From positions 1 to 26,094 of the IMG/VR virus record IMGVR_UViG_3300037069_003566: 26,094 nucleotides of DNA. One strand, 5' to 3'. Every line of letters starts with the position of its first letter. Position 1 is the stretch's first letter. Positions 5,209 through 26,094 of this stretch are shown in pieces. Source of the DNA: a virus. A program made the position numbers and the translations under genes. Below the pieces are notes generated by a model that worked only from the letters and a program-made list of their open reading frames with translations, was not told the origin of the DNA and made no database searches.

Positions 5209-5422
5209 GACGCATGAGTGTAAGTGAGTCTGCTTTCCCCTGGAAAATAGCGAATAGTCGCTGAGCTAATTCAGGATCTCGCCCCTGCGCTTCCGCTTGA
5301 GCAATCCATGCCGCGCCTCGCAGGGCATCGGCCTGAATGTTTTGCACAGTTTCCTCTGTCGCAAAACCGCGTGTTTTGGCAATGTGAGTAATCCACTCCT
5401 TTGCACTTTTAATTTCAGCCAT
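5201..5422 (-). CDS. Hypothetical protein, 73 aa
   Basis: A small, mostly helical, soluble protein (MAEIKSAKEWITHIAKTRGF...). It overlaps the terminase stop by 8 bases and the AAA+ gene start by 8 bases, so translation is probably coupled to both. No motif or family is recognised. A helper role for the downstream helicase loader can be imagined from position alone. Confidence 0.65.
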   Translation of the reverse strand: MAEIKSAKEWITHIAKTRGFATEETVQNIQADALRGAAWIAQAEAQGRDPELAQRLFAIFQGKADSLTLMRHG

Positions 5423-7205
5423 ATTTCAACTCGCTCTTTTTGACCACCTTGCGCCATTTCTCCTGCTCGCGTTCCAGCCAATTATCTTCCTCGACCGCCG
5501 CGCCTTCCTTCACCGATTGAATCACAAAGCCCAACCGGCGCGCGCCCTCGCCACCGATGCTGAGCACGTCAGCCTTATTCGGGCTGTGGCCGCTGTTACG
5601 CAACTTGTACTCTGGCTTGGTTTCCAGCTCGTAGCGCTCGCCCAATGGCCCGGGCACCCAACGCCATTCGCGTTGCGAGAATTCCTCGGCGGCGCTCTTT
5701 GGAAAATTCCGCGCCTGTTTGCACTCGACCGCCTTCCGGATCGAGTACCACATTTCCGTAACAAATTTGCTGTAGAGCTCGTTGCACTTCATCAGCCGGC
5801 GCTCACCGGTCTTGGGGTCGTCGATAAAGCTGCCATCGTCCACCGGCCGATCAGTCGCCGGGCCGCCAAAGTTCACCGCGTTTACCGCGTTGCCGCAAAC
5901 TCGCGCCATGCTGATTGCCAGGGTGGCCCGCATACCAGCGTCGAAGAAGATGTTTTGCGGTGGCACCTTGAGCCGCTCGGCGTCGGCTTTCACAAAGTAG
6001 GCAATTTGGTCCTCGGCCGTAATGCGCGAGCTTACCTCGATGGGAATTGAGCGGGTCTCGTTGAAGCGAATGACCTGCCGCCCTTCAACGTCCTCGCCAA
6101 ACTCCAAATCCATCACTTCGCACGGGTCACCACCGAAACCCGCGTCAATCGCGTAAACCCGGGTGCGCTCGCCACCGCGCCAGATGACGTCTTTGAACGC
6201 CCCGCAGCGCTCGCACATCTCGACCGTGAGCACCCGGTAGGCATCGGCGCCAATCTTGCGCACACCCAGCCCCAGGGTCCAATACTGCGCCGAGTCTTTC
6301 CCGTTGCGCTGCTCGATTTTCTTTAAATCGGCTTCATCGGTGAGGTAGGGGTAATACTTGGGCCGGTCCTTATCGAAGTTGGGGCTGTCGCTGCCGACAA
6401 GCTGGACGGTTACCCCGTCGTACTTGTTGCGCCAGGTGGTGGTCTTGGTGATCTCGCCCAGGCTCGACCAGCCGGCCAAAGGTTCAGCTATTTTGTCGAG
6501 AGCTTTACCGTTACCGCCGATGGGATTGCCAGCGAAAACGCCTTTGAAATCGCCTTTGTCCATGGCGTCGAGCACGTTCACATACATCGGCGCCATAAAC
6601 TGGAGCTCGTCGCCCAGGATGCGGCGGCGCCTCTGCTTGATCCCAACGTAGCGGTCCATGCCTATCCACTCGCCTTCACCACCCACGCACGGCACAGCTA
6701 TCATCCCGCGGCGGATATCGCGAACGTCGCCGGTGTCTTCGAGCAAATCGGTGAAAATGCCGGTCATCGTGTTGGACATGCGCCCGGCCAGCCACGGGTA
6801 GCGGTCTTTGGCCTCTTTGAACAGGCTAGTAATGTCGCCCCAAATGCGCAGCTTGAGTTCGCGGATACCGGTCGAGGAAACCAAGGTCAGCGTGTCGCTC
6901 GGGCTGGCCCAGTAGTCGATGAGTCCCCACTTGGAAATTGTGCGGGTTTTTGACGAATCCTTGGTCCCCTGCAGGACGGTTATACGTTCCTCGCAAATGG
7001 TTCTGAGAGAGAGGTCTGACCAGCGATGGTGATCGTCGTTAGGCCAGCAAAGTGATTGAGCGGCCCGCTGGTGATGGAAAACCCCTTGCCCGTGCTTCCG
7101 GCCGTAGCGCTCGATAAACCCGCCCGCAGCGATCATGGCCAGTTCGATTGCGAGCAGGTCTTCACCCTCAGACCACGGCAATCCGTAAACTGTTTTGCTC
7201 GCCAC
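5415..7205 (-). CDS. terL: Terminase large subunit
   Basis: 596 residues from a GTG start. The ATPase domain has Walker A GTKDSSKT (80-87) and Walker B ILGDE (196-200). The C-terminal RNase-H-like nuclease shows 'VYAIDAGFGGDP' (Asp354), 'IFFDAGMRATLA' (Asp422) and 'SPNKADVLSIGG' (Asp546), the three acidic positions of the metal site. The protein packages phage DNA into preformed heads and cuts concatemers. The Walker A loop has Ser where most P-loops have the Gly before Lys, a variation found among viral terminases. No small terminase is recognised. The gene is first in the leftward operon and reads away from the divergent control region at 7206-7289. Confidence 0.88.
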   Translation of the reverse strand: MASKTVYGLPWSEGEDLLAIELAMIAAGGFIERYGRKHGQGVFHHQRAAQSLCWPNDDHHRWSDLSLRTICEERITVLQGTKDSSKTRTISKWGLIDYWASPSDTLTLVSSTGIRELKLRIWGDITSLFKEAKDRYPWLAGRMSNTMTGIFTDLLEDTGDVRDIRRGMIAVPCVGGEGEWIGMDRYVGIKQRRRRILGDELQFMAPMYVNVLDAMDKGDFKGVFAGNPIGGNGKALDKIAEPLAGWSSLGEITKTTTWRNKYDGVTVQLVGSDSPNFDKDRPKYYPYLTDEADLKKIEQRNGKDSAQYWTLGLGVRKIGADAYRVLTVEMCERCGAFKDVIWRGGERTRVYAIDAGFGGDPCEVMDLEFGEDVEGRQVIRFNETRSIPIEVSSRITAEDQIAYFVKADAERLKVPPQNIFFDAGMRATLAISMARVCGNAVNAVNFGGPATDRPVDDGSFIDDPKTGERRLMKCNELYSKFVTEMWYSIRKAVECKQARNFPKSAAEEFSQREWRWVPGPLGERYELETKPEYKLRNSGHSPNKADVLSIGGEGARRLGFVIQSVKEGAAVEEDNWLEREQEKWRKVVKKSELKYG

Positions 7206-12515: not shown

Positions 12516-12531
12516 AGCAAAAAGAGATTCC

Positions 12532-13209: not shown

Positions 13210-13245
13210 AGCCCGCCGCAGTGGCTTTGGGCCAAAGGGCGGGTT
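13210..13245 (-). terminator. Rho-independent-like terminator
   Basis: Arms 13210-13217 and 13238-13245 form an 8-bp GC-rich stem (one wobble), with an inner CTTTG/CAAAG hairpin. Read on the minus strand, the stem ends in GGCGGG followed by CTTTACTTT, a broken T tract. It lies 20 bases after the stop of the 208-residue gene and before the start of the 199-residue gene, so it separates two leftward units. Confidence 0.55.
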
Positions 13246-13264
13246 GGGGGGTGAAGGGGTGCTT

Positions 13265-14169: not shown

Positions 14170-14310
14170 TGGCTTTTCTTTCGTTTGAACCCCTCGCCCC
14201 GGGTGCCAATGCAGGCGCGCCGGCGGGCATTGGTTGCCGACTCGAAACGCGCAAGAATTTTCCCAAGGCGAGGGAGATTTAGGTTTGACTGATACTGCAT
14301 TGGCGAAGTC

Positions 14311-14338
14311 ACATTAGCAGAGCTTAGAGAAGTGTCAA
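14311..14338 (-). promoter_or_regulatory. Sigma-70-type promoter
   Basis: On the minus strand TTGACA (14333-14338, perfect consensus) is followed after 16 bases by TAATGT (14311-14316, three of six bases). Transcription would start near 14304 and run left into the genes at 14169 and 13891. The leader of about 135 bases (14170-14304) includes two copies of the motif GCATTGG on the plus strand and no gene that I can support. Confidence 0.5.
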
Positions 14339-14355
14339 GACCGTAGTTTTACTGA

Positions 14356-14601
14356 TTAGTCCCGGCGTTGCACTTGATGCTCAGGCTGGCCGTACACCTC
14401 GCAATCAGTCCAGAGCGGCAGCTTATAGGCGCACTCTTTGGCCAGGTCGAGATTGCGCAGGCGCCGGTAGGCCAGTTCCCGCTCAAAGCAATAGCGGCAC
14501 AAGATAAGGTTGCCGTGATCGGGAATGCTGCCCAAGGGCAGGACCCGCACTTCCAGAGCCGAGCACGGCCCGGACCCGTCGCACATGGGGTTAGTGATCA
14601 T
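14356..14601 (-). CDS. Conserved phage hypothetical protein, 81 aa
   Basis: Reads MITNPMCDGSGPCSALEVRVLPLG, then 'NLILCRYCFERELAYRRLRNLDL' and 'LPLWTDCEVY'. I recognise the arrangement 'MCDGSGP...VRVLP...LCR.CF..E..YRR.RN...LP.W....VY' as a small family recurrent in metagenomic phages. The CRYC knuckle with earlier cysteines may bind zinc. The start overlaps the RadC stop (ATGA). Function unknown. Confidence 0.7.
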   Translation of the reverse strand: MITNPMCDGSGPCSALEVRVLPLGSIPDHGNLILCRYCFERELAYRRLRNLDLAKECAYKLPLWTDCEVYGQPEHQVQRRD

Positions 14602-15107
14602 ATAGCGAAGTATCCCAATTCCCGCAAACTGGCATAATCCTTGGTGCGTTCAGGCGTCGCGCTCCCGAGGATGACATGATCCAGCACTTCGATTTTCAGT
14701 AACTGCCCAGCTCGGATCAGATCGCGCGTAACCTTAATGTCGCTTTCCGATGGGCTCGGATCACCGCTCGGATGATTGTGTGCAAGAACGATAGCGGCGG
14801 CCCCAAGCACGATGGCAGGCTTGAAAACCTCGCGCGGGTGGATTAGCAACGTGTCTAATGTCCCATTACTCACGATTTCAAAGCCGATGACACGTCGGCG
14901 CGTGTTGAGCAGAACGGCAATGAAGTTTTCCGTATCGGGATTGTAGCGTAGCGAGCCGGGCAGGCTTTTGCGCAGGAAGTCAGCAACTCGCTCGGGAGTG
15001 TCCGCCATATCCTCTTGCGACGGGCTTTCATTTAGTCGCATAACCTTGAATTCAGAGGCGCCCAAGCGCAGGCGCCATGATTTAAGACTGCGGGTTTCGG
15101 TATTCAT
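14598..15107 (-). CDS. radC: RadC-like JAB/MPN-domain protein
   Basis: 169 residues. The metal-binding signature 'LAHNHPSGDPSPSESD' (108-123) supplies His110, His112 and Asp123, as in RadC/YeeS-type JAB1/MPN+ proteins; 'NTRRRVIGFEIVSNGTLDTLLIHPREVF' before it is also typical. The helix-hairpin-helix domain of full-length RadC is missing, as is usual in the short mobile-element versions. The biochemical role is unsettled; these proteins travel with phages, plasmids and islands and are presumed to act on DNA or isopeptide bonds. Transcription would start at the promoter at 15141-15169. Confidence 0.88.
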   Translation of the reverse strand: MNTETRSLKSWRLRLGASEFKVMRLNESPSQEDMADTPERVADFLRKSLPGSLRYNPDTENFIAVLLNTRRRVIGFEIVSNGTLDTLLIHPREVFKPAIVLGAAAIVLAHNHPSGDPSPSESDIKVTRDLIRAGQLLKIEVLDHVILGSATPERTKDYASLRELGYFAI

Positions 15108-15140
15108 AAGACTACATTGGCTTTCTTCCGCGCTGTGGTG

Positions 15141-15169
15141 ACTTTACGCAATGCGTAAAAGTATTTCAA
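15141..15169 (-). promoter_or_regulatory. Promoter of the radC unit with embedded operator
   Basis: On the minus strand TTGAAA (15164-15169, five of six) and TAAAGT (15141-15146, four of six) are separated by exactly 17 bases. The spacer and -10 box contain a 17-base palindrome, TTTACGCA-A-TGCGTAAA (15143-15159), so a dimer bound there would block RNA polymerase. Expected start near 15134, 27 bases before the RadC ATG. Confidence 0.65.
15143..15159. promoter_or_regulatory. Palindromic operator-like site 1
   Basis: TTTACGCAATGCGTAAA has 8-base arms around one central base. The half-site GCGTAAAAG (15153-15161) recurs as a direct copy at 15198-15206. A hairpin-like CAAGA-TTTT-TCTTG (15167-15180) lies between them. 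Confidence 0.6.
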
Positions 15170-15186
15170 GATTTTTCTTGCAGTAT

Positions 15187-15205
15187 TTTTACTGAAAGCG
15201 TAAAA
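15187..15205. promoter_or_regulatory. Operator-like site 2 before the rightward operon
   Basis: TTTTAC-TGAAAGC-GTAAAA is an inverted repeat with 6-base arms sharing the GCGTAAAAG half-site of site 1. It lies directly upstream of the AAGGG Shine-Dalgarno-like bases (15204-15208) and the GTG start at 15214. A weak rightward promoter TTGCAG (15178-15183)/TAAAAG (15201-15206) with 17-base spacing overlaps it but would leave almost no leader. Confidence 0.45.
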
Positions 15206-15213
15206 GGGCTTTT

Positions 15214-15378
15214 GTGGCAATTAAAACAACCCGCCGCTTTGGATTGAATGTCTGCACCTGTTTGCGCTGCGGGCATCAATGGGCCGCGCGCGTAAAACTC
15301 CCGGCGGTGTGCGCCAGTTGCAAAAACCCGCATTGGCGAACGCCGCGCGGTAGGAAGAACGGAAAGAACGGAAAATGA
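15214..15378 (+). CDS. Small zinc-ribbon protein
   Basis: 54 residues from GTG 15214: MAIKTTRRFGLNVCTCLRCGHQW (first part), then 'LPAVCASCKNPHWRTPRGRKN'. The pattern C-x-RCGHxW followed by P-x-x-C-x-x-CKNPxW is a classic rubredoxin-like zinc ribbon of the kind abundant in archaeal and phage small proteins. The basic tail could touch DNA or RNA. AGGG lies five bases before the start. The stop overlaps the next ATG (ATGA). It opens the rightward recombination operon next to the operators, so a regulator role is possible. Confidence 0.8.
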   Translation: MAIKTTRRFGLNVCTCLRCGHQWAARVKLPAVCASCKNPHWRTPRGRKNGKNGK

Positions 15379-15617
15379 ACACCCCCGACCTAACCACCGT
15401 TGCCGCCGGCCAGATGCGCGACGAGATGAAGCGCCGAATCGAGATAATGATCCACCAGCCGCCGAGTCTCACCGTACGGTTGAAGATCGCCGAGGCCGCC
15501 GAATGGTTGCGGGCCGGCGCACCTGGGCGCGCGCTCGAAATGCTCGAGGAGTTGTTAACCGAGTTTGAGCGGGAGGACTTTGAACCGCGCAAACCGGGCG
15601 AACCACCACCGTTTTAA
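15375..15617 (+). CDS. Hypothetical protein, 80 aa
   Basis: A helical, charged protein (MNTPDLTTVAAGQMRDEMKRRIEIMI...). 'IAEAAEWLRAGAPGRALEMLEELLTEFE' looks like a helix-turn-helix pair of TPR type. The end is proline-rich. ATGA overlap with the zinc-ribbon gene. No family recognised. Confidence 0.65.
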   Translation: MNTPDLTTVAAGQMRDEMKRRIEIMIHQPPSLTVRLKIAEAAEWLRAGAPGRALEMLEELLTEFEREDFEPRKPGEPPPF

Positions 15618-15627
15618 GTACCGCACG

Positions 15628-15963
15628 ATGAGCACAGAGGTAAGTCCTATGGGTTTCTGGCTTGATAACGCCTTCGAGGCCGGCAAGCACATCATCGTTG
15701 ACTGTGGTTATGTGCGCCACGCCAATGCGCGCAATAATGCCGATCGCCTGCGCGTGGCTTTGGGCTTCGACACGAAACAGGCACGCCGAAAGGAAATCGT
15801 TGCGGTTGTTGCCTGTGGTCGTGTTCTGGTTAGGGTCCCTAAGCCCAAAGAGCATTTGCTAAAACGCTTTCGCCGCATACGGCAAGGCACTGCCTACGCT
15901 TGGTGTACACACGTTTATGATAAAAACGGGCCGCAATTTAAATTGGTTTACGCACTGAAATGA
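15628..15963 (+). CDS. Hypothetical basic protein, 111 aa
   Basis: ATG 15628 begins MSTEVSPMGFWLDNAFEAGKHIIVDCGYVRHANARNN (first part). A central strand-rich part 'KEIVAVVACGRVLVRVPKPKEHLLKRF' and 'GPQFKLVYAL' at the end suggest a small alpha/beta or beta-barrel fold. The many Arg and Lys residues would fit nucleic-acid binding. It overlaps the annealing-like gene by ATGA, placing it in the recombination unit. Confidence 0.65.
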   Translation: MSTEVSPMGFWLDNAFEAGKHIIVDCGYVRHANARNNADRLRVALGFDTKQARRKEIVAVVACGRVLVRVPKPKEHLLKRFRRIRQGTAYAWCTHVYDKNGPQFKLVYALK

Positions 15964-17489
15964 GCACCGAGACAATCGATATCGAAACCACCAGCCAACC
16001 ACAAACGATGGCGGTCGAGCGCCGCGGTGAGACCGGCGTTGGCAAAGCCCTGAGCATTGATGAGCTCTCCGCTCGCCTCAAATTCGTGCGCGACGTGATG
16101 CGCCAAGAGATGAAGGAGGGCACCGACTACGGTGTTATTCCCGGTACGGGCCAAAAGCCGACCCTCTTGCAGCCAGGCGCGCAAAAGCTCCTGCTCACGT
16201 TCAATCTCACCGAGGAGGTCAAAAAGGAAGTGTTGCGGGAGTACCCCGACATGCACCGGGAATATGAATTTACCGTGACAGTGTGCGCGGCCAACGGCAA
16301 GCGGTGGGACGGCGTAGGCACCTGCAGCACCCTCGAAACCAAGTACCGGTACCGCAAAGCCGAGCGGGTTTGCCCGACCTGCGGCAAAAAGGCGCTGATT
16401 GCGGAGAATCCCAAGTTCTTACAGCCCGGCGAGGTCCCAGGCTGGATTTGCTGGAAGAAAAAGAGCGGTTGCGGCACCCGGTTTCGGAAGGATCACCCCG
16501 GGATTGCCCAGGATGCCGAGCCGACCGCCAATCCCGACCCGGCCGATTGCTGGAACACGGTGCGCAAGATGGCATTCAAGCGGGCCCTGGTCGCCGCGGC
16601 CATCAACGCGACCAACACCAGCGAACTCTGGACCCAAGACCTCGAGGAAGGCGCCGAACCCGCCGAGAACACCCCAAAACCGCCTAAAACGCCCCAGGAC
16701 AAGAAAGCGGGTGTCAGCACACCACCCCCGGCCGCAAGGCCTCAGCAACCCCCCGCGACGGCGGCGAGCACTAGCCAAAAGCCCGCGACGGCGCCCACCG
16801 GACCCCGGTTTGCGACTGAAAAGACCCGGGATTGGATGATCCGCCAGCTCGACGGCGCCGAGGATATCGCCCTCGAGTACTTTCGCAATTTAGAGAAACC
16901 GGCCGTGCTGCTGGAAAACGAGCAACTAAAGGACGTGCCTTTTGAGTGGGTGCCCATGAGCCGGGAGCAAATGAAGCTGCTGGATAAAGCGCTTAGGGCG
17001 TTCGCCAATGGCGATCCACCGGTGCACCCTTATCCGCCCAATCCGATCAAGGAAGAGGAAAAGCAGCGCCGGGTTGCGGCCGCCAAACCAAAGCCAGCAC
17101 CAGCGCCAGCGGCTAAACCCGTGGAGGTGCCCAGGGATGAGAATTGCGATCCCAACTCGCCTAGTGCGCCCTGGCGTTCCTTTCCTTTTCCATTTGGCAA
17201 ATCGGCAGGACGCAAACTGGCCGACGTTGACAAAAAGTATCTCTTTGGCTTCTGGGCGAACTATAAGGTTGAGGAAACCTTTAACGGCAAGCCCAGGCGA
17301 CCCGAGACCATCGCCAAAGACACCAGGTTTCGTCAGATGCTGGATGAGGCCGGAAAGCATTACGAGTTTGGCAAGCCGCGCGACGCACAGCCCGATACCG
17401 CCTACAGCAAGGCAGTTGTCACCGATGGCTCACGCGAAGCTGAACTACAGGCCGAGCTCGCCGCCGAGCAAGACGGCGTGCCGTTTTGA
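15960..17489 (+). CDS. Putative recombination protein (ssDNA-annealing-like) with C-terminal FGK domain
   Basis: 509 residues. The N-terminal domain contains 'MKEGTDYGVIPGTGQKPTLLQPGAQKLLLTFNL' (split across residues 51-83) and 'DCWNTVRKMAFKRALVAAAINATNTSELWTQDLEE' (196-230); these blocks characterise a phage family commonly placed with recombination genes and suspected of Rad52/Sak-type single-strand annealing. A zinc ribbon (CPTCG at 138-142, CWKKKSGC near 164-171) is inserted between them. A Pro/Ala-rich linker (about 235-300) leads to a helical segment. A last module, 'FPFPFGKSAGRKLADVDKKYL', resembles the DUF3820/exonuclease-X C-terminal DNA-binding motif. The next recognisable genes, a PD-(D/E)XK nuclease and a RusA-like protein, support a recombination role. 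Confidence 0.65.
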   Translation: MSTETIDIETTSQPQTMAVERRGETGVGKALSIDELSARLKFVRDVMRQEMKEGTDYGVIPGTGQKPTLLQPGAQKLLLTFNLTEEVKKEVLREYPDMHREYEFTVTVCAANGKRWDGVGTCSTLETKYRYRKAERVCPTCGKKALIAENPKFLQPGEVPGWICWKKKSGCGTRFRKDHPGIAQDAEPTANPDPADCWNTVRKMAFKRALVAAAINATNTSELWTQDLEEGAEPAENTPKPPKTPQDKKAGVSTPPPAARPQQPPATAASTSQKPATAPTGPRFATEKTRDWMIRQLDGAEDIALEYFRNLEKPAVLLENEQLKDVPFEWVPMSREQMKLLDKALRAFANGDPPVHPYPPNPIKEEEKQRRVAAAKPKPAPAPAAKPVEVPRDENCDPNSPSAPWRSFPFPFGKSAGRKLADVDKKYLFGFWANYKVEETFNGKPRRPETIAKDTRFRQMLDEAGKHYEFGKPRDAQPDTAYSKAVVTDGSREAELQAELAAEQDGVPF

Positions 17490-17493
17490 CCTT

Positions 17494-17754
17494 ATGGCGC
17501 AAATCGTCATTAACTATCCACCGAACCGCAACCAGTCAGCGGAAAAGCTTTGGTGCTATATCGCCATCGACAAAGAAGGGAACGAAAGCCCTTGCGGCAT
17601 GATGGGTTCTCATGGCTGGATGGCCATGATGAGCTCTGAATGGCGATTGGTCGAAAAGATGCGCCCGGCGGCGATTTCGATGGCACGCCACACGCCCGAG
17701 TTGCGGATCGTCCTTCGTCAATACTCAGAGTTTACCGATTTGGAAACCTTATGA
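17494..17754 (+). CDS. Hypothetical protein, 86 aa
   Basis: Reads MAQIVINYPPNRNQSAEKLWCYIAIDKEGNES (first part, in two blocks), then 'GMMGSHGWMAMMSSEWRLVEKMRP'. Methionine-rich middle. The ATG is four bases after the previous stop and the end overlaps the next start (ATGA). No recognised family. Confidence 0.65.
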   Translation: MAQIVINYPPNRNQSAEKLWCYIAIDKEGNESPCGMMGSHGWMAMMSSEWRLVEKMRPAAISMARHTPELRIVLRQYSEFTDLETL

Positions 17755-18062
17755 GTGTGCCCTTTACTCAATACATGATGCCCAACGGCAGAAAGGTGCC
17801 AGTCACGATTGACCTTTCGCCGATGCACGAAGGCCTCGCCCGAGTGATTATTTCCAGGGGGTACCGGTTCGAAATCGAAGTTCTTAGGACCGGCGAGGTT
17901 TCAGCCGAAATCGTTAAGAATGTTTCCGACCCGGATATTGATGACTCTCTCGCCACTGAGATTTGCTCAAACGGGCCTCAGGTGCCCGTGAGTATTAGCA
18001 AAATGATCGAGGATGCCGCTAGAGCTATCGGCATCGAAATAACCACACACCAAAACTTATGA
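17751..18062 (+). CDS. Conserved phage hypothetical protein, 103 aa
   Basis: Begins MSVPFTQYMMPNGRKVPVTI, with 'RVIISRGYRFEIEVLRTGEVSAEI' and 'DIDDSLATEICSNGPQVPVSI' following. The 'P-x-GRKxPVxIDL...G.RFE.EVL.TGEVS' strand pattern recurs in small phage early proteins of unknown function. ATGA overlaps at both ends, directly before the nuclease. Confidence 0.7.
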   Translation: MSVPFTQYMMPNGRKVPVTIDLSPMHEGLARVIISRGYRFEIEVLRTGEVSAEIVKNVSDPDIDDSLATEICSNGPQVPVSISKMIEDAARAIGIEITTHQNL

Positions 18063-19075
18063 CCACACCTGCAACACCTACCGCCGCTCGAACCTTCTCT
18101 AAAGACTCTTCGCATTGGTATCGGATCACGGGCGAGAGTTGCTACCAAATCGAGAAGAAGGACAAAAGCGGGATGCGCGCGACTACCTTGCGCGATGCCC
18201 GCACGCTTAATCTCGTGCCCTCGGTGACCACCATCCTGCAAATCCTGCACAAAGAGGCCCTAGTGCAATGGAAGATTGAGCAAGCCGTCCTGGCCGTGGT
18301 GACCGCACCGCGGCAGCCAAATGAGGCAGACGACGCTTTCATTCGCCGGGTGTTGCACGAGGAAGAGCAACAGCACGAAGAAGCCGCCGCAGCCCGCGAT
18401 CTGGGCACGCAGATCCACGACGCCCTTGAGCTTTACCTCGTGGGCGCCGAAGTGCCGGCGGATATGATGCCCTGGATTGGCCCGGCCGCCGAATCCATCC
18501 TCGCCTTTGGAAAAGTGGTTACCACGGAGCAAAACCTTGTGGGCGAGGGTTACGCCGGCAGGTGTGACCTGATTCAAGACGGTGGCGAGTTTTGGGCGAT
18601 GACGGATTACAAGAGCGCCAAGAAGCTGCCGAATCCGACCAAGGGTGCATGGCCTGAGCACCGCCTGCAACTTAGCGGCGGCTATGCCCCAGCCTGGGCC
18701 CACAAATGCCGCAAAGACGGCTTGCCCGAGCGCACCATCATTCGCCGCAACGTCTATATTTCCAGCGTCAACCAAGGCCAGTTTGTCATCTGCGAGCATG
18801 AGGAAGATTGGCAGGACGTTTACGAGCGCGGGTTTGCCCCGCTGGTAAAACACTGGCAATGGATGACTGGCCACGTCCCGAACCAACCCGAATTCGCGAT
18901 GCTACAGCGCCACGAGCCGACCGAAGCTGACCGGGAAGCGATTACGAAAGCGGCAAAAGCTGGTTTCCCAGTGCTGCCGCCACCCGCACCCACCAACGGC
19001 CCCGAGCGCAAGCGCAAGGTGGTGGTGACCGAAGGCGTTCGAGTGATACAAACCGCGCCGATGATTGAGCCGTGA
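18059..19075 (+). CDS. PD-(D/E)XK exonuclease (RecB/Cas4-like)
   Basis: 338 residues. 'VPSVTTIL' near residue 53 and GTQIHDALE (116-124) form the N-terminal motif with His120. 'GYAGRCDLIQ' (164-173) gives Asp170, 'MTDYKSAKK' (181-189) gives the D-x-K catalytic pair (Asp183, Lys185), and 'HRLQLSGGY' (201-209) supplies the Gln-x3-Y helix. These are the hallmarks of RecB-family nucleases used by phages to resect ends for annealing. Placed two genes after the annealing-like protein, it would form an exonuclease-annealer pair analogous in logic to lambda Exo-Beta. Confidence 0.85.
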   Translation: MTTPATPTAARTFSKDSSHWYRITGESCYQIEKKDKSGMRATTLRDARTLNLVPSVTTILQILHKEALVQWKIEQAVLAVVTAPRQPNEADDAFIRRVLHEEEQQHEEAAAARDLGTQIHDALELYLVGAEVPADMMPWIGPAAESILAFGKVVTTEQNLVGEGYAGRCDLIQDGGEFWAMTDYKSAKKLPNPTKGAWPEHRLQLSGGYAPAWAHKCRKDGLPERTIIRRNVYISSVNQGQFVICEHEEDWQDVYERGFAPLVKHWQWMTGHVPNQPEFAMLQRHEPTEADREAITKAAKAGFPVLPPPAPTNGPERKRKVVVTEGVRVIQTAPMIEP

Positions 19076-19257
19076 GTGGTGAGCCGCAATGGAAGGTCTT
19101 TAGGGCTGGCCAAGCTACCGGGCGAGCCATGAAAGCAAAGAGCCGGTTTTGGCGCTACGGCTGGTTGAGACTCGCCCGAAAACACATTCTATCCTTGCCC
19201 GAAAATCAGCGACCCAGCTATTGGCGCGAAATCGTTACGCCTGAAAGCTTTTGGTAA
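19072..19257 (+). CDS. Hypothetical basic protein, 61 aa
   Basis: GTG start in a GTGA overlap with the nuclease stop. Strongly basic and aromatic ('SRFWRYGWLRLARKHIL', 'RPSYWREIVTPESFW'). Probably a small nucleic-acid-associated factor, from charge and position only. Confidence 0.6.
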   Translation: MSGEPQWKVFRAGQATGRAMKAKSRFWRYGWLRLARKHILSLPENQRPSYWREIVTPESFW

Positions 19258-19258
19258 T

Positions 19259-19627
19259 GTGACCCGTGAGCAGCTCAAAGCCAAGTTCCCGAATGCGACA
19301 GAAGATTTCATCGCACTCAACTCCGCTGCTCCTGTGGGTGGACTGGTCGCCTCTCAGCTACAACACAACCCGCGGCCACCACTGGGGCACGTTGCAAAAA
19401 AACAAAAAAGCGGCAAAAGAGGCTTGGTTGCAGTCGTTACGATCGTCAAGTGCGGCCCGGGATGCGCTGATGACGATAATATCGGGACTGGCGCCAAGCC
19501 TCTTAGAGACGCTATCGCGACAAGCCTCGGTGTTGACGACGGGGATAAGCGGCTGCGCTGGCAATATCGAGGACTTGATTCGAGCGGACCAAAAGGCACC
19601 CTCGTCATCATACAGCGGCTCAAATGA
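19259..19627 (+). CDS. RusA-like Holliday-junction resolvase
   Basis: 122 residues from a GTG start. The signature 'ADDDNIGTGAKPLRDAIATSLGVDDGDKRL' (in blocks, residues 70-99) matches the RusA pattern D-x-DN-x(2-6)-K-x-x-x-DAL followed by DD, which holds the acidic catalytic residues. The C-terminal 'KGTLVIIQRL' strand is also typical. The N-terminal 50 residues are less RusA-like, so it is somewhat divergent. Phages use such enzymes to resolve branched recombination and packaging intermediates. Confidence 0.7.
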   Translation: MTREQLKAKFPNATEDFIALNSAAPVGGLVASQLQHNPRPPLGHVAKKQKSGKRGLVAVVTIVKCGPGCADDDNIGTGAKPLRDAIATSLGVDDGDKRLRWQYRGLDSSGPKGTLVIIQRLK

Positions 19628-19833
19628 AACCGGAGCGGCCAGTTAATGTTTCGCGCTTGGTCACCGGCCAGTGCCACACCTGCCGGCGCACGCTCAAGGT
19701 TTACGTGAAGCATTACGAGGTCTTTCGCTGCCAGTGCGGCGCCGAGTCCTGGGCGTTGCAACCCAAGCGCGACGGTTCGCTTGTTCTTTTTCCTCACCCA
19801 AACGGTCATGCAAAGCCAATGGAAACATTTTAA
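19624..19833 (+). CDS. Small zinc-ribbon protein, 69 aa
   Basis: 'GQCHTCRRTLKVYVKHYEVFRCQCGAESWAL' (in two blocks) shows CxxC and CxC knuckles about 17 residues apart, a compact zinc ribbon. ATGA overlap with the resolvase stop. Its last 26 bases overlap the next gene in another frame. Function unknown. Confidence 0.65.
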   Translation: MKPERPVNVSRLVTGQCHTCRRTLKVYVKHYEVFRCQCGAESWALQPKRDGSLVLFPHPNGHAKPMETF

Positions 19834-19987
19834 GGCTGAGTGGGAGCGGCTCAGTCTAGCGGATCGAATCCTGTTGATCCTTCTGCTCGTGACGCTCTTA
19901 ACCGCATGGCTGGTGCCAAGGCCGCAAGTGTTGGGTTATAAATGGAAGCTGCCGCCGCACCGGCCGATTACCTACTACATGAAATGA
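19808..19987 (+). CDS. Single-pass membrane protein, 59 aa
   Basis: A charged amphipathic N-terminus (MQSQWKHFKAEWERLSLADR) is followed by one strong transmembrane helix (ILLILLLVTLLTAWLV) and a short Pro/Lys-rich tail. Size and topology would fit a holin, an inner-membrane spanin or a superinfection-exclusion peptide. It directly precedes two exported proteins, making a membrane/envelope cassette. The start overlaps the zinc-ribbon gene by 26 bases, a little unusual here. Confidence 0.65.
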   Translation: MQSQWKHFKAEWERLSLADRILLILLLVTLLTAWLVPRPQVLGYKWKLPPHRPITYYMK

Positions 19988-20553
19988 AAACATTAGTCAG
20001 TGTCGCCCTCGTATTGGGACTACTATTCGCTCCCGTCGCCGTCAATGCTCGCCCTGATCCACCGCCGCCGCCCATGCCAACAACGTGCATCGTGCTTGGG
20101 ATCGCCGCTGTTGTTACCGGGGTGCTGGTTTATGGTCTGATCAGATGCTGCGAGAACATGCCAGCAGATCAAGGTGCGCCAGTTGTCCCGCCGGACCTTG
20201 AATCTCAACTGCCGCCACCGGGTGGAATTTACATCTTCCGAGTCCCGCCGAAGCTCTCAATGGGTTGGGCCATGCTCAACCAAGGCATTGAAATTCAGCA
20301 TGGCTCGCCGCTTGTCGATAATCGCTCGCCTAACTGGCAGGCGGATTACTCTTTCAGGGCCATCAACAATTATGACGGGACGATGAGTATGATCGCCTCG
20401 GACGCAAACGGCGTGCCACTGCAAACCAACACCGTCTCAATCATCAACTGGAACGACGGCAAGAATTACGCGTTCTTCGACTTCTCAACGCTGGGCAGCA
20501 TTCCTACCAACATGCCGCCAAAAATGTTCTTTCGGCTGGCAACAACGCGATGA
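19984..20553 (+). CDS. Exported membrane-anchored protein, 189 aa
   Basis: A textbook signal peptide (MKTLVSVALVLGLLFAPVA ending VNA, cleavage likely after residue 22) precedes a proline run (RPDPPPPPMP), then a transmembrane helix (CIVLGIAAVVTGVLVYGLI, about 34-52). The remaining 130 residues are beta-rich and end 'PPKMFFRLATTR', a C-terminal signature common in secreted Verrucomicrobia proteins ('P-x-x-FFRL/FYRL'). It is probably anchored with the C-terminal domain outside the membrane. A role in lysis, adhesion or exclusion of other phages is possible; no enzyme motif is seen. Confidence 0.7.
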   Translation: MKTLVSVALVLGLLFAPVAVNARPDPPPPPMPTTCIVLGIAAVVTGVLVYGLIRCCENMPADQGAPVVPPDLESQLPPPGGIYIFRVPPKLSMGWAMLNQGIEIQHGSPLVDNRSPNWQADYSFRAINNYDGTMSMIASDANGVPLQTNTVSIINWNDGKNYAFFDFSTLGSIPTNMPPKMFFRLATTR

Positions 20554-20774
20554 CCACCCAAGTTCAAAAGCTGGTCGATGACGCGCGGGCAACCCTCTGG
20601 CTCGCGTTCAAAGCTGATGCGCAGTTTCAAAGGGAAAACGAAGACGCGATCGCTGCCGTCATTGCCGAGTTCGATAAGGAACGGTGCCGCATCTCCGGTG
20701 CGGCGCCTTTAACCACGATTGATAGAAACATTCTGGCATGTCGCATTTTCGCACGATTGTTTGCGGGGGAGTAA
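20550..20774 (+). CDS. Hypothetical protein, 74 aa
   Basis: Helical protein (MTTQVQKLVDDARATLWLAF...) with one cysteine pair spaced widely. The start overlaps the previous stop (ATGA); its last 37 bases overlap the lipoprotein gene in another frame. No recognised family. Confidence 0.6.
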   Translation: MTTQVQKLVDDARATLWLAFKADAQFQRENEDAIAAVIAEFDKERCRISGAAPLTTIDRNILACRIFARLFAGE

Positions 20775-21109
20775 TCTTCCTGGTTGGCTGTGTTGGCTTG
20801 ATAGCGCCAAAGCCACCTAGGCCGGCGGTTTCCATTAAGAGCCTGACGAACCTTCGCTGGCCACCGCCGCACACCAACCGTATCGACACAAACTTTGTTT
20901 ACCGGCCATTTACCAACATCACCCTTCAGTGGAATTGCGACCCGCCGCCGGTTTCGTGGTGGTCCACAACTTACGTCACGGGCATCGTGTCTGCGACAAA
21001 CCTGGCTGGCCCGTGGACCGAGGAAACGAATTTGCCGTATGCGAGAACCAACCGGGTGACTTTGAACGTGAGTGGTCCAGTGCGCTTTTACCGCGCCTTC
21101 AACCGATGA
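20738..21109 (+). CDS. Probable lipoprotein with verrucomicrobial-type C-terminus
   Basis: 123 residues. The N-terminus MSHFRTIVCGGVIFLVGC contains a hydrophobic core and a lipobox-like L-V-G-C with Cys18, the predicted lipid-modified residue. The mature part is short and beta-rich and includes 'ATNLAGPWTEETNLPYA' and the ending 'GPVRFYRAFNR'. The 'NLxGPW...FYR' pairing is a repeated C-terminal beta-domain motif in Verrucomicrobia exported proteins. With the transmembrane and signal-peptide genes just upstream it could be an outer spanin or a surface modifier of the infected cell. An acquired host gene fragment is also possible. Confidence 0.65.
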   Translation: MSHFRTIVCGGVIFLVGCVGLIAPKPPRPAVSIKSLTNLRWPPPHTNRIDTNFVYRPFTNITLQWNCDPPPVSWWSTTYVTGIVSATNLAGPWTEETNLPYARTNRVTLNVSGPVRFYRAFNR

Positions 21110-21396
21110 AACCCACCCAAGCGCAGATAGAGAGGTTGTCCAGACACTTGAAGCGGCTCTTTGGCGAAGAGCCGACGTGGCAAGAAGTAGCTGACTACGT
21201 CCTCCGCAGGATAGCGGCAGCGGAGAGAAGGGGTGAACGAAGGTCGGATGCTCGTTGTGAAACCCGCATCAATAACATGGAGCAATTGAGGCCGCGCACT
21301 CCTTGGGATCGGTTAGCGGAGAATTTCCGCAAGGTTGACCCGGCAGGAACAAAACTAGCCAAACTCGTGCGAGCACAGAAAGGCAGGCGGAAATGA
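21106..21396 (+). CDS. Hypothetical protein, 96 aa
   Basis: Reads MKPTQAQIERLSRHLKRLFG, 'EPTWQEVADYVLRRIAAAERR', then 'PRTPWDRLAENFRKVDPAGTKLAKLVRAQ'. All-helical, basic; the first half could be a small DNA-binding domain. ATGA overlaps at both ends. No recognised family. Confidence 0.65.
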   Translation: MKPTQAQIERLSRHLKRLFGEEPTWQEVADYVLRRIAAAERRGERRSDARCETRINNMEQLRPRTPWDRLAENFRKVDPAGTKLAKLVRAQKGRRK

Positions 21397-21752
21397 CTGA
21401 CCAAGAAATCAACGTGGCGATTGCGGAGGCGTGTGGACGCGATGGATGGTGGTGTCCACAGTGCAAAAAACTTGTAGATGAGTATTCACTGGGATACCAG
21501 AATCGTCACGCAAACTGCACGGACTCCGCTCTGCAATCCCCTTCCTACGCCACCGACCTCAACGCGATGCGAGAGGCGAGAAGGGGATGGACACTAAAAC
21601 AGGTGATGCGGTTCTCTGATTTGTTAAAGAATATCATTCAAGACGAGCACTGCATTGAAAGCGCGGTCGATGCTCGATACCAGACCTTGCAGGCCACGGC
21701 GAGACAGGAAGCAAAAGCGCATTTGCAAATGCTTGGCAAATGGAAGGACTAA
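21393..21752 (+). CDS. Conserved phage hypothetical protein, 119 aa
   Basis: 'MTDQEINVAIAEACG' at the start, 'YATDLNAMREARRGW' in the middle and 'ATARQEAKAHLQMLGKWKD' at the end match a widespread phage protein pattern (TDQEIN.AIAEACG ... Y..DLNAM.EA ... ATA.QRAEA.L..LG.W). Function is unknown. This copy has an added cysteine pair (WWCPQCKKLVDEY) and NCT that may bind zinc. It is preceded by an ATGA overlap. Confidence 0.78.
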   Translation: MTDQEINVAIAEACGRDGWWCPQCKKLVDEYSLGYQNRHANCTDSALQSPSYATDLNAMREARRGWTLKQVMRFSDLLKNIIQDEHCIESAVDARYQTLQATARQEAKAHLQMLGKWKD

Positions 21753-21753
21753 C

Positions 21754-22572
21754 ATGAGCGAAATGACGTGTGAGAAGTGCGGCGAAGAATACGCCCTGCG
21801 CGACGGGATGGACCCAACGCCGCTATGTGATGAGTGCGCCCACAAAGAAGTTGAGGAATTGACGCAACGCCTCAAAACTTCCGAGCGCCAGAAGGAAGCT
21901 ATGCGGGAGGCTGGAAATCAACTTCACGAACTATGCTCTGGATATAGTCGCGGTGCTGATGTGAGAGAGGCGTGGAAACAAGCCCTTTCCCCCGACGCCG
22001 GTTCAGACTTCGTGCCCAAGAGCGAAGTCGAGGCGCTTCGACGCGAACTTGCGTTAATGAGCGGATCGGGTCCGGGCAGCTTCATCGAGAGAGTGGTGAT
22101 TAAACCACTCGAGGCAGAAGTCGAAACGCTTCGACGCGAGAGGGATGAGTTGGCAGCGTTGTTCAAATTCATTCGCGATGAGTGCGACCACGAGACAGAC
22201 CCTCGCATTGAAAATGCTTTTCGACAGCACCTTAACGCACTTTCATTGGAGATGCATGATAACCAGCTCTTGAATAATTTCAGAGTTGGACAGACGAAAC
22301 ACGACGCCGAGTTGCCAATGCAAGCCGAAGTCGAAACGCTTCGACGCGAGAGGGATGAGTTGGCGGCGGTGTGTGAAAAGTATTGCAATGCGCTTTCAGT
22401 GGAAACTCGACAGCAAGTGCTCGCCCAACACGACTCCGACCTGCTCAAGCCGACGGTGGAGTTGTTGAGAATTTTCCCAGGTCGTAATTGCTGCGAGCGG
22501 GAGTGGAATGATTGGATAGACAAATTAAGAAACGAGAGAGTTCGCCTCAACGGGCTGAAAGGAACTGCGTAA
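21754..22572 (+). CDS. Modular coiled-coil protein with N-terminal zinc ribbon
   Basis: 272 residues from ATG 21754, preceded by a good GGAAGGA Shine-Dalgarno. The N-terminus has CEKCGEEYALRDG and CDECAH (a zinc ribbon), then long charged helices. 'EVETLRRERDELAA' occurs twice and a third, weaker 'EVEALRRELA' precedes them; each perfect copy is followed later by 'NALS-x-E'. This indicates internal duplication of a coiled-coil module. The architecture recalls the modular Ea22-like early proteins of phages, whose segments shuffle by recombination. It ends six bases before the converging minus-strand gene. Confidence 0.7.
   Translation: MSEMTCEKCGEEYALRDGMDPTPLCDECAHKEVEELTQRLKTSERQKEAMREAGNQLHELCSGYSRGADVREAWKQALSPDAGSDFVPKSEVEALRRELALMSGSGPGSFIERVVIKPLEAEVETLRRERDELAALFKFIRDECDHETDPRIENAFRQHLNALSLEMHDNQLLNNFRVGQTKHDAELPMQAEVETLRRERDELAAVCEKYCNALSVETRQQVLAQHDSDLLKPTVELLRIFPGRNCCEREWNDWIDKLRNERVRLNGLKGTA
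22117..22154 (+). repeat. 38-bp direct repeat, copy 1
   Basis: Identical over 38 bases to 22327-22364, 210 bases apart and in the same reading frame. A degenerate third copy lies at 22024-22047. It encodes the coiled-coil heptads of the modular protein. Confidence 0.9.
22327..22364 (+). repeat. 38-bp direct repeat, copy 2
   Basis: Second perfect copy. The base identity extends through synonymous positions, so the duplication is recent or kept uniform by recombination. Confidence 0.9.
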
Positions 22573-22578
22573 TTATGC

Positions 22579-22788
22579 TCAGTAAAATCCGTTTTTATCC
22601 TTCTTGGGCATCACGAAAGCCGAGCGTTTCTTCATGTGGCCACCCTTGACGTGGCCGGTGCCTTTCTCTGTCCCGCCACCGCTGCTGACCATGCCGGTTT
22701 TAATGCCGCCGGTAATATGGCGAACGTGCGAGCCGCGTTTCTTTCGCGGGTGCGGGCGGTGAATTGAGCCTGGAAACATCATGTTCAT
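22579..22788 (-). CDS. Small basic Gly/His/Lys-rich protein, 69 aa
   Basis: Reads MNMMFPGSIHRPHPRKKRGSH (start shown in part), then 'VRHITGGIKTGMVSSGGGTEKG' in pieces and 'MPKKDKNGFY' at the end. Very basic, probably disordered. GAAAGG eight bases before ATG 22788 is a fair Shine-Dalgarno; the longer open frame upstream overlaps the 56-residue gene and is unlikely. Small basic proteins after a large virion gene may be DNA-condensing or scaffold-like, which is only an inference. Confidence 0.65.
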   Translation of the reverse strand: MNMMFPGSIHRPHPRKKRGSHVRHITGGIKTGMVSSGGGTEKGTGHVKGGHMKKRSAFVMPKKDKNGFY

Positions 22789-22801
22789 TTTGTGAGCCTT
22801 T

Positions 22802-22972
22802 CTAATAGAATTTGCCGGTGTAGCCGTCGCCCACCGATTCGTGTTTTTTCTTTTTACTCTTGTGCGCGTATTTGGGCAACTTTCCCTTGTTGTCGAAATG
22901 ATGCTTCTTAACCCACTCGTGCCCGAATTTCGCCTCGAGAAAACCACGCTGCTTTTGAGATTTGGCTGGCAT
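22802..22972 (-). CDS. Small basic protein, 56 aa
   Basis: ATG 22972, with AGGA six bases upstream. The protein starts MPAKSQKQRGFLEAKFG, continues 'HEWVKKHHFDNKGKLPKYAHK', and ends 'SVGDGYTGKFY'. 'MPAKS-x-x-QR-x-F' openings with a 'G-W.KKHHFD' helix are typical of a tiny phage protein family found near structural or packaging genes. It is easy to miss because it is short. Function unknown. Confidence 0.75.
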   Translation of the reverse strand: MPAKSQKQRGFLEAKFGHEWVKKHHFDNKGKLPKYAHKSKKKKHESVGDGYTGKFY

Positions 22973-22979
22973 AAGTGTC

Positions 22980-25900
22980 CTATTGCTGTGGAGCGTTTAA
23001 CATCTGCTGGAATTTGCGGTAGAGCTCGCGGCGTTCCTCAATCGCTTGATCATAGGTCTTACGGTCCTCGGGACTCAGCGAGCGCTTAAACTTGGCCTCG
23101 GCAGCCGCGCTGCCAGTAAAAGGGTGCGGGTGCTGCATGGTCTGCCGGATGGCGCTCGGCTTCTTACCCTTCTGGCGTAGTTCCTGATAAGCCTCCCGGG
23201 CGCCCTTGGTGTCATTGCGCAGGAGCGCACCACGCAGGTCCTGATACTCACTGCTGAAACTTTCCTTTGTATGCTGCTCGTACTCAGAGCGGATCTTCGG
23301 GTCCTCGGAGCGGCTCGCCCAGGAGTTGGCCAGGTCATGCACCTGGGACACTGTGGAGAGCGGCGCTCGCGTCTTAATGCCGGCGGCGCTGGACAGCGTT
23401 GACACCGCCGATTCGACGCCCGGCGTAATTCCGGTGCCCTGCTTCTGAAACCAGCCGTGAAGTAGGGGGTTTACGTTGCGCATCGCGGCCAGGAAGTTTT
23501 GCCAATAATCGCCCGGGTCCTTTGACTCTTTGTAGAACGAGGTCGTATAACCGGTAGCACCGATAACCGGCACTTGCACGACGGGTCCAGCCCAGGGATG
23601 CACTGCGGCGCCGATGATATCATGGATGGCTTGCTTACCTATTTGCTTTGCTGGTTGCCCTCGGCGCATACCCTCGATCAGCGCGTTGATGCCGGTCAGG
23701 CGCATCCCGCGGCGCAACCCAATCCACTGCGCCGGATCGATGTAGATCATCTTGCCGTTCTTATCGTTCTTACCGGTATCGATGGTGCCGAATGGCACGC
23801 CTTTGCGGCCGGTAGGCGAACCGGTCAGGACGGTGTTCAAGAGTGTGGGAATGGCGACCAGGGTGGCGATAACACCTGTTGCCTCGACGGCTCGCATCGC
23901 GGCGGCCGATTTTAGATTGGCGGCTCGCACACCCGGCGAGAGAGAGATCCGGCGCAAGGCCATGCGGTTGAAGTTGCGGCCGGCGACCACGAAAGGCGAT
24001 AACCCGACCTCTTTGAAGAAGGATTCAATCTGGCCCATGATGCGCGGGTTATACTGGCCAAGCTGATTGACGAATTCCCGCCGGCCAACCTCGCTCGGCT
24101 CGACCAAGCCGCGGTTGACCAGGTTCTTGTACATGTCGTCGCGCACCACGCGGCCCGCCTTGTCCACGAGGTTAATGAGGCGGCTGGTAAACCATCCTTG
24201 CGGCCGGGCGGCTCGCACCGCTCCAATTTCAGAGAGCTCGGCAATCTGCTGCATTACAGCCGGGTCATTGGCTAGCACCTTTTTGCCTGCACTCACGACG
24301 CGCACTGCGGCATCGACCGCGTTCACCAGGGGAAGCTTGCGGGCGAGGTCTGCAAGGAGGGATTTGCCACCTTGCGAACCCGCGATCGTGCTCATCATGT
24401 TGGCGATATGCCAAACGGCATCGGTAGGCCCGGCCAACTGGATGCGGTTTAGGACATTAGCCACCCTCGCCAGCGCCACGTTGCTGACTGGGCTGCCCAG
24501 GTTCTCAGCCTGGCGCAACTCGGGCGCTACGGCCGGATCAACCCAAAGGTTCTCGTATTGCGGGATAACCCGGGTGCCTTCCGGCCCACGGCTCACCGTC
24601 ACCTGGCGGCGGATTTGAAATTTCTCAGCGGGTTTGCCATCGAACGTCGGACGCGGGCGCCCGGGCGCGTCGATGACGGCGAGCCCGTCCTTCACCAGTT
24701 GATCGTAAAGCTGGCGCTTGGTGTATTCCTCGTAATTGCCCTGGATCATGCGTTCGACTAACGGCAGGTAATCGGTCTCGTACTTCTCAGCGGTACCCTT
24801 CGCACGGCGGGCGAATATCGACCGGCGCTTGAACGGCCGGGTGTAATCGCCCTTGCGCGCGCTGGCAAAGATTTGCTGCGGGTTATCCTCAAAAATGGGC
24901 AAGAGGTTGACGAAAGCACCAGTTTGCACGCCTGGCCCGGCAAATTGGCCTTCAGCCTCGGTATGAAATTGCAACGCATCGACCTGAGGGCCTTGCTTGT
25001 GCCGCTCAATGGCCGCGGCGATCTCGGGGTCTCTGAGTGCGGCTTGGTAATCGCGCTCCGTGGCGAATGGTTTGCCCTTGCCGACAAGGGTGTTCACGTC
25101 GCTGGCCTGAGAGAGCAGGTCAAACTGGGCGTCACCCTCGGCCTTGTTGGCGGCATCCATCAGCCCTTTTTGGATGGCACGCAACCGGTCCTCGACCAGG
25201 ACGGCGCCCAGGCGGTTGCGAAACTCGACGTCCTTAAACTTGTCGCCCAGGACTTCGACGGCATGAGCGCGGGCGATAGCGGGACCGGCGGTAGTAGCGG
25301 CGGCAAAGCGCACCATCTTGTTCCCGGCCTCGCCTGAGCGGGCCATGGTCTTTGGCACAGCCTCACCGGCCAACTTGCGCTGAAGCGCATCGACAACCTC
25401 AGCGGCTCGAGTACCAAAGAGACGCTCGGTAATGTTGCCCAGGAGGCGACGGCGGTTCTCGCGGGCGGTAAACTCGGCGGCGGAAGCAGCACCAGGGCCT
25501 ATGCCACCGGTTGGGCCAAGGTCGGAAGGTGGTTGTTCTTTTAGTTGCTGCTCGATCCAATCCTTATCCTTCTTGGGAATGCCAGACCGGCTCACCTTGA
25601 CCGGCTCGGTTGGCTTAATGCTGATCGCTTTCGCTCTTTCGAGAACGCTGCCAAGGGCCTCTTTGGTGTTCCAAATCTCGAAGCGACCATCACCGGGAAT
25701 GTCGATAGTGACTTTGCCAACGGTCTCTTCGAGCCGCTTCATCGTGCGGTCATAATCGGCTTTGCGATTTTGGTAAGCCTCGGGCGTGAGGTTTTTGCCC
25801 TTCTCTGGTGGCCCTTTTCGAATTGCCAGAAAATCACCCGCAATCTCGTTTGAGTCTTTTTCGCTTTTAGCTGTTTTAATCGCGTCCTCAAGGCGCTGAA

Positions 25901-26094
25901 CCAACTCGCTCTTAACCTCTTTGGCCGGGCGCTGGCCCTCAGTCGCCGCAACCTTGCTTACTTCGGCCTGCGCTTTGGCGGCGGGCGCGACGGTTTCAGA
26001 AACAGGCGCAACCGTTGCAGCTTCGGCAGGTTTCGTTTCAGCAACAGGCGCTTTCGTTTCAGCCGGTGGCGCAACTGGCTCAGCGGGTGTGGGT
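22980..26094 (-). CDS. Very large virion-type protein, start beyond right edge
   Basis: The frame is open from the stop at 22980 to the window edge, at least 1037 residues, so the N-terminus is missing; a TTG at 25904 is not needed as a start. The most N-terminal visible part is a Pro/Ala/Glu/Val linker with repeated 'APVAETKP'-like units. Long amphipathic helices follow ('FTARENRRRLLGNITERLFG', 'VRFAAATTAGPAIARAHAVEV'), then 'PTDAVWHIANMMSTIAGSQG', 'VEATGVIATLVAIPTLLNTVL' (a membrane-type helix), and near the C-terminus 'DPGDYWQNFLAAMRNVNPLL'. Size, helical nature and a late hydrophobic segment suit an internal/ejection protein or the C-terminal part of a phage 'large polyvalent protein'. 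No catalytic motif is seen in the visible part. Confidence 0.6.
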   Translation of the reverse strand, partial: PTPAEPVAPPAETKAPVAETKPAEAATVAPVSETVAPAAKAQAEVSKVAATEGQRPAKEVKSELVQRLEDAIKTAKSEKDSNEIAGDFLAIRKGPPEKGKNLTPEAYQNRKADYDRTMKRLEETVGKVTIDIPGDGRFEIWNTKEALGSVLERAKAISIKPTEPVKVSRSGIPKKDKDWIEQQLKEQPPSDLGPTGGIGPGAASAAEFTARENRRRLLGNITERLFGTRAAEVVDALQRKLAGEAVPKTMARSGEAGNKMVRFAAATTAGPAIARAHAVEVLGDKFKDVEFRNRLGAVLVEDRLRAIQKGLMDAANKAEGDAQFDLLSQASDVNTLVGKGKPFATERDYQAALRDPEIAAAIERHKQGPQVDALQFHTEAEGQFAGPGVQTGAFVNLLPIFEDNPQQIFASARKGDYTRPFKRRSIFARRAKGTAEKYETDYLPLVERMIQGNYEEYTKRQLYDQLVKDGLAVIDAPGRPRPTFDGKPAEKFQIRRQVTVSRGPEGTRVIPQYENLWVDPAVAPELRQAENLGSPVSNVALARVANVLNRIQLAGPTDAVWHIANMMSTIAGSQGGKSLLADLARKLPLVNAVDAAVRVVSAGKKVLANDPAVMQQIAELSEIGAVRAARPQGWFTSRLINLVDKAGRVVRDDMYKNLVNRGLVEPSEVGRREFVNQLGQYNPRIMGQIESFFKEVGLSPFVVAGRNFNRMALRRISLSPGVRAANLKSAAAMRAVEATGVIATLVAIPTLLNTVLTGSPTGRKGVPFGTIDTGKNDKNGKMIYIDPAQWIGLRRGMRLTGINALIEGMRRGQPAKQIGKQAIHDIIGAAVHPWAGPVVQVPVIGATGYTTSFYKESKDPGDYWQNFLAAMRNVNPLLHGWFQKQGTGITPGVESAVSTLSSAAGIKTRAPLSTVSQVHDLANSWASRSEDPKIRSEYEQHTKESFSSEYQDLRGALLRNDTKGAREAYQELRQKGKKPSAIRQTMQHPHPFTGSAAAEAKFKRSLSPEDRKTYDQAIEERRELYRKFQQMLNAPQQ

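Follow-up and report, generated by a model that had tools for sequence, protein, structure and literature searches.

Several kinds of small phage-encoded envelope proteins have been described. Llp of phage T5 is a small lipoprotein that blocks FhuA from the periplasm and so provides superinfection exclusion; its gene adjoins that of the receptor-binding protein, and mature lipoproteins of the Llp/Cor type contain an intramolecular disulphide (PMC9586334). Ltp-type lipoproteins of Streptococcus phages are likewise described as superinfection exclusion proteins (PMC3952083). Two-component spanins, such as Mu gp23 and its o-spanin, pair a lipoprotein with a membrane-anchored protein whose gene lies nearby. 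In these systems the outer component has a lipobox, its gene is nested in or overlaps that of the inner component, the inner component has a helical coiled-coil periplasmic domain, and a holin and an endolysin adjoin; a unimolecular spanin is a lipoprotein with a C-terminal transmembrane helix. Lambda Lom and Bor represent a further type, exported accessory proteins altering the host surface. Here, a group of genes with features shared by these systems is presented from an uncultured phage.

The cassette and its coupled gene run

The window, meaning the whole stretch of DNA that was analysed, is the linear IMG/VR viral record IMGVR_UViG_3300037069_003566 of 26,094 bases. As the initial annotation had proposed, a one-helix peptide, a protein with signal and transmembrane segments, and a lipoprotein stand together at 19808-21109, and the open reading frames, hydropathy and lipobox all agree on this. 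P1 (19808..19987, plus strand) is a 59-aa single-helix membrane peptide with its hydrophobic residues at about 18-36; the best 19-residue Kyte-Doolittle mean of 2.16 was matched by only 4 of 2000 shuffles. P2 (19984..20553, plus strand) is a 189-aa exported protein composed of a signal-like N-terminus, a second hydrophobic helix, a Pro-rich linker and the end FFRLATTR. Its N-terminal hydrophobic stretch covers residues of about 4-22 and ends ahead of VNA/R, and the second covers residues 35-53 (mean 2.57, 7 of 2000 shuffles). P3 (20738..21109, plus strand) is a 123-aa lipoprotein with the lipobox LVGC, Cys18 and the end FYRAFNR; its N-terminal hydrophobic stretch has a mean of 2.29 (6 of 2000 shuffles), and hydrophobic windows over 1.6 occur at this terminus only. 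Both endings and the export signals of P2 and P3 are therefore present as first described, the signals as judged from hydropathy and motif.

A fourth gene, overlooked in the initial annotation, lies between P2 and P3 and encodes a soluble protein of 74 aa (20550..20774, plus strand), whose maximum hydropathy mean of 0.87 was reached by 1498 of 2000 shuffles. Upstream, the gene of a 69-aa Cys-rich protein (19624..19833, plus strand), with a relative in the related contig G009, overlaps the start of P1, and downstream of P3 follow two coupled genes (21106-21396 and 21393-21752, plus strand). Neighbours overlap by 4 to 37 bases (ATGA or longer), and because every gene from 19624 to 21752 overlaps the next, they form one coupled run. 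The same plus-strand run encodes an exonuclease (18059..19075; Pfam PDDEXK_1, phrog_298), in keeping with the earlier view of an envelope cassette embedded among DNA-metabolism genes. The sole promoter-like site found scores under the shuffle mean.

For P1 and P2, the annotated frame had the better coding score. For the 74-aa gene the score was barely above that of the antisense frame (0.19 v 0.17), and for P3 the two were tied (0.08 v 0.08). The reading frame of P3 was assigned from its position in the run and from its lipobox. Single-sequence AlphaFold2 models gave helices at 2-21 and 33-57 of P2, followed by strands after residue 120, and a helix at 3-20 of P3, again followed by strands; with mean pLDDT values of 49.6 and 48.9, the confidence of both models is below usable and too poor for a fold search.

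No family was found for P1, P2, P3 or the 74-aa protein in Pfam, PHROGs, NCBIfam and PADLOC (best E 0.06-0.24, chance level); for P1 and the 74-aa protein, the searches consisted of these family libraries. For P2 and P3, peptide patterns found no relative in IMG/VR, tblastn gave no match in INPHARED and chance rows only in PLSDB (E 1 or above), and sequence searches of the PDB also gave chance rows only (best E 0.18). Peptide patterns, which reach close relatives only, retrieved no relative of P3 from 84,980 species genomes, and P2 had none in 20 related phage records. Relatives sought by way of the exonuclease and the phrog_10048 protein were also not found. At the sensitivities used and in the databases searched, the cassette proteins thus appear to be orphans.

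Several candidate matches were rejected. Among 301 Chloroflexota genomes, 9 gave P3 matches whose best E lay between 1.2e-4 and 0.0083, and these were taken as chance, with internal stops in 3 of the 9 rows. The P3 matches in L021-L023 (E 0.05-0.26) were dismissed, as the open reading frames there look non-coding. A fibronectin type III domain in P2 or P3 received no Pfam match up to E 1, and the scores of P3 against a pair of FnIII-like repeats in L020 were equalled in 243 and 70 of 500 shuffles.

The phage record and its relatives

That the record derives from a phage is supported by its IMG/VR virus entry and by PHROG matches of the exonuclease and the DnaC-like loader. Family matches identify the DnaC-like loader (4516-5208), a RadC-like protein (14598-15107), a cytosine methylase (2105-3364) and an N6/N4 methylase (8852-10102). 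A DNA polymerase beta thumb domain is encoded at 7775-8506 (plus strand; Pfam E 5e-8); this family X-like polymerase piece in a phage has one relative, of 40% identity, in G009 only. A large minus-strand gene is open to the right edge of the window, indicating that the genome is incomplete. A 49-base direct repeat with 94% identity was seen at 22114-22162 and 22324-22372, within an open reading frame with a coiled-coil look (21655-22572).

Two further IMG/VR contigs are 100% identical to the window over 12-14859 and 12-13823. Both extend beyond its left end, and neither reaches the cassette; positions 1-11 differ from both, suggesting either the end of an assembly or a genuine variant junction. 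The longer contig, L016, extends the sequence by about 18.6 kb, in which portal-, scaffold- and capsid-like genes are found. These names, as well as that of the terminase, were inferred from size, order and conservation, without a meaningful PHROG match. The terminase-like large subunit (5415..7205, minus strand), which has no PHROG or Pfam family, served as the query for finding relatives. Paralogous glycosyltransferase-like genes adjoin the structural genes (window 339-1019 and 1395-2108, minus strand; L016:1163-1879). The copies are 31-39% identical to each other with a Glycos_transf_2 E of 0.0019, below the cut-off, and are perhaps responsible for capsid or surface glycosylation. An Rfam search gave no match.

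In two relatives, an intein/Hint-type insert interrupts the terminase-like gene (L020:3459-5519; L073:13137-15890, minus strand), with Intein_splicing E values of 5e-7 and 1.4e-8 that are just under or below Pfam's cut-off. The terminase match is likewise in two pieces in G017 and G018.

The comparison set consisted of 10 related contigs over 40 kb, with shorter relatives left out and with G017 and G018 being near-duplicates. In all 10, at least one Sec-signal gene, in some cases a short one, follows the capsid-like gene on the same strand and no more than 11 kb away. A lipoprotein was flagged in that downstream stretch in 7 of the 10, and small transmembrane genes after or beside it in at least 6. 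In G009, an unflagged lipoprotein at 36789 stands directly before an open reading frame at 37007 with a hydrolase-like look. The stretch downstream of the capsid-like gene would be where the lysis genes of the lineage are to be sought. For the phage of the window, L016 has the capsid-like gene at 14770-16329 and stops at 19418, which leaves the equivalent stretch behind this gene unsequenced. The cassette lies on the strand opposite to the terminase-like and capsid-like genes. Since the exported and lipoprotein module of the relatives is on the strand of the capsid-like gene, the cassette is not its positional equivalent.

These comparisons bear on whether the cassette is a lysis cassette, in which P1 would act as a holin or pinholin and P2 and P3 as an inner and outer spanin-like pair breaching the outer membrane, one of the uses suggested at first. 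A small transmembrane peptide, a transmembrane or exported protein and a lipoprotein do stand side by side, the outer candidate P3 has a lipobox as in two-component spanins, and neither the window nor L016 contains another recognisable holin-like gene. Among the proteins scanned, which come from an incomplete genome, there was no recognisable holin or endolysin. Other defining features of spanins are absent here, however: the P3 gene (20738-21109) is clear of that of P2 (19984-20553) instead of being nested, an extra soluble gene stands between them, no endolysin family occurs among the neighbours scanned, and P3 is without a C-terminal transmembrane helix. Furthermore, the outer part of P2 is predicted, at low confidence, to form strands rather than a coiled coil, the run also encodes an exonuclease, and the relatives hold their exported, lipoprotein and transmembrane genes in the stretch that is unsequenced here. 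With these spanin features absent and the cassette sharing an exonuclease run on the opposite strand, a lysis role is unlikely and ranks below envelope modification.

C-terminal endings and host evidence

Endings of the FFRLATTR and FYRAFNR type, putatively typical of exported Verrucomicrobia proteins, led to the proposal that the C-termini of P2 and P3 may be captured verrucomicrobial surface domains displayed as mimics. A [FY][FY]R motif in the last ten residues occurs in 2 of the 42 window genes, compared to 0.155 expected from shuffled last-40 residues. Two such endings were reached in 18 of 2000 shuffles, a mild over-representation of a motif that was picked post hoc, after being noticed. 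The greedy gene caller behind these counts loses small genes that overlap others. It did not flag P3, and for the motif count five such genes were reinstated by hand where they had been lost. In the 10 related contigs, the ending is found in 1 of 678 genes versus 1.69 expected. It is therefore not a clade trait, and a clade-wide domain marked by it was rejected.

The only clade gene with the ending, G019 36783-37322, encodes a 179-aa, N-terminally hydrophobic protein of exported type that reads STDLVNWDW...FYRVEP, and this related phage protein speaks in favour of a host-derived domain. The comparable part of P3 is SATNLAGPW...FYRAFNR, but the pair fails against shuffles, 291 of 500 being as high. 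In the alignment of the P2 and P3 C-termini, 489 of 500 shuffles do as well; the two ends are unlike each other and hence not two copies of one detectable domain. Neither aligns with the G019 protein beyond shuffles (129 to 489 of 500 across these comparisons), and P3 is without a relative in genome contigs by peptide patterns. A search of IMG/VR, INPHARED and PLSDB with the FYRVEP protein retrieved only itself. This protein is the last of a two-gene unit (G019 36445-37322, plus strand, equal to L083:16445-17322) on the strand opposite to the structural genes, with a moron-like appearance.

Evidence on the host of the lineage was obtained from the terminase-like gene, whose relatives comprise 43 IMG/VR loci, two of them belonging to the window's own phage. 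In cellular genomes, one 5.5-kb contig of an Anaerolineae fen MAG was found. Of 301 Chloroflexota genomes searched, two matched strongly, one being this same Anaerolineae MAG, and a further six had weak partial matches (E 8.5e-5 to 7.6e-4); the cellular matches lie on short contigs, which are easily mis-binned. Such host evidence would seem to lead elsewhere than Verrucomicrobia, or nowhere. When positions 6100-26094 were compared with 400 Chloroflexota genomes, 270 of the 400 had some match at E up to 0.1. Among the matches listed, the best spacer-like rows were 69-76% identical over 119-191 bases and 91-92% over about 47, in the 8852-10102 methylase, and the longest perfect matches were 25 bases, so that no CRISPR spacer was seen among them. 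RadC in plasmids, considered as a host clue, gave matches that were all below 60% identity and from mixed taxa.

A direct comparison is offered by P8625, a cultured lytic tailed phage of Verrucomicrobia, the host group first proposed, for which no exported protein was predicted by SignalP as published (PMC4642752). At E 1e-3, no open reading frame of the window or gene of L016 matches this phage. None of its 45 called genes was flagged as exported, and none has FYR-type ends. With no homologue of P2 or P3 in any collection searched, C-termini that are unalike, nothing shared with P8625 and the cellular matches of the lineage in Chloroflexota bins, the verrucomicrobial origin of the C-termini is unsupported, and host-derived surface mimics are an improbable explanation of the two proteins.

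Predicted envelope function and exported proteins of the lineage

P1-P3 are best read, tentatively and at somewhat less than even chance, as an accessory envelope-modifying cassette, most simply used for superinfection exclusion. An envelope role is supported by hydrophobic segments that are each rarer than 8 in 2000 shuffles and by a consensus lipobox. P1 would be a single-pass inner-membrane peptide, P2 an exported protein whose second helix holds it in the inner membrane, and P3 a lipoprotein. Judging from the operon company and the strand, synthesis of these proteins most likely precedes that of the late proteins. They probably change the envelope of the infected cell, and may do so to exclude other phages rather than to lyse it; both the final location of P1-P3 and the exclusion function are predicted from sequence features.

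With Llp and Cor, P3 shares a plausible action on the host envelope; it is also a small phage lipoprotein without known domains and has, by motif, a signal peptide with a lipobox. P3 is larger than Llp, though, and the two have no detected sequence relation, and a neighbouring receptor-binding protein gene is not known for P3. After Cys18, P3 contains one further cysteine, Cys67. The mature chain thus has a single cysteine besides the lipidated one and would form no intramolecular disulphide, unlike Llp. For these two reasons, the disulphide and the sequence relation, P3 was not classed with the Llp-type lipoproteins, and the likeness would at best be one of working. Ltp resembles P3 as a phage lipoprotein of the cell surface with a use in exclusion, which for P3 is proposed. 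It differs in its other bacteria and its lysogeny-module setting, and family searches gave no sequence relation.

Lambda Lom and Bor are similar to the role proposed for P1-P3, and the cassette could consist of lysogenic-conversion (moron) genes, whose exported products alter the fitness of the lysogen and take no part in the lytic cycle. The same crude predictor picks Lom together with a second, unannotated lipoprotein gene of lambda, which we take to be Bor, and the two-gene unit of G019 on the strand opposite to the structural genes is consistent with such elements in related phages. Nevertheless, no sequence relation to Lom or Bor was detected, the proteins scanned included no recognisable integrase or repressor, and the overlaps fuse the cassette into a gene run instead of leaving it free-standing. 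A moron origin is doubtful, and superinfection exclusion, at the tentative level given above, stays the simplest predicted use of the cassette.

Stranger than the cassette are long Thr/Asn-rich fibre- or spike-like proteins of related phages that start with Sec-type signal peptides, as virion fibres are not expected to bear export signals. They are encoded at L083:10827-12965 (minus strand; equal to G019 30827-32965), L065:8115-12079, L062:7266-9275 (minus strand), L073:16162-17247, L085:4402-6156 and L018:12763-14340. The protein of L085, a shorter relative, has a match of tail-spike type (Pfam E 1.8e-4, below the cut-off; PHROG tail spike E 5.2e-6). Long Sec-signal proteins occur in 7 of the 10 contigs, several of them being fibre- or spike-like, and Sec signals were flagged in 13 of 196 long genes (at least 250 aa) of these contigs, as opposed to 1 of 76 for the reference set of lambda, T7, HK97, Mu and part of N4. 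An unusual overall export rate in the clade was rejected, the counts being 32 of 678 genes and 9 of 275 in the five reference phages. The G019 fibre-like protein had no match in INPHARED and PLSDB, and a literature search by listings found no paper on signal-peptide-bearing tail fibres.

It is conceivable, but quite unlikely, that the clade systematically uses the Sec pathway of its host to export phage proteins, with fibres or spikes encoded downstream of the capsid gene and envelope cassettes beside DNA-metabolism genes. Before being lysed, infected cells would then carry fibres of the phage together with host-like beta domains on their surface, where these might serve as decoys, as adhesins or in exclusion. 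Phage envelope proteins for exclusion or surface remodelling are known mostly from phages of cultured bacteria, and the range would be broadened by an orphan envelope set from an uncultured lineage. If the clade-wide pattern of Sec-signal fibres were confirmed, it would raise the testable question of why a phage exports what appear to be its own adhesins.
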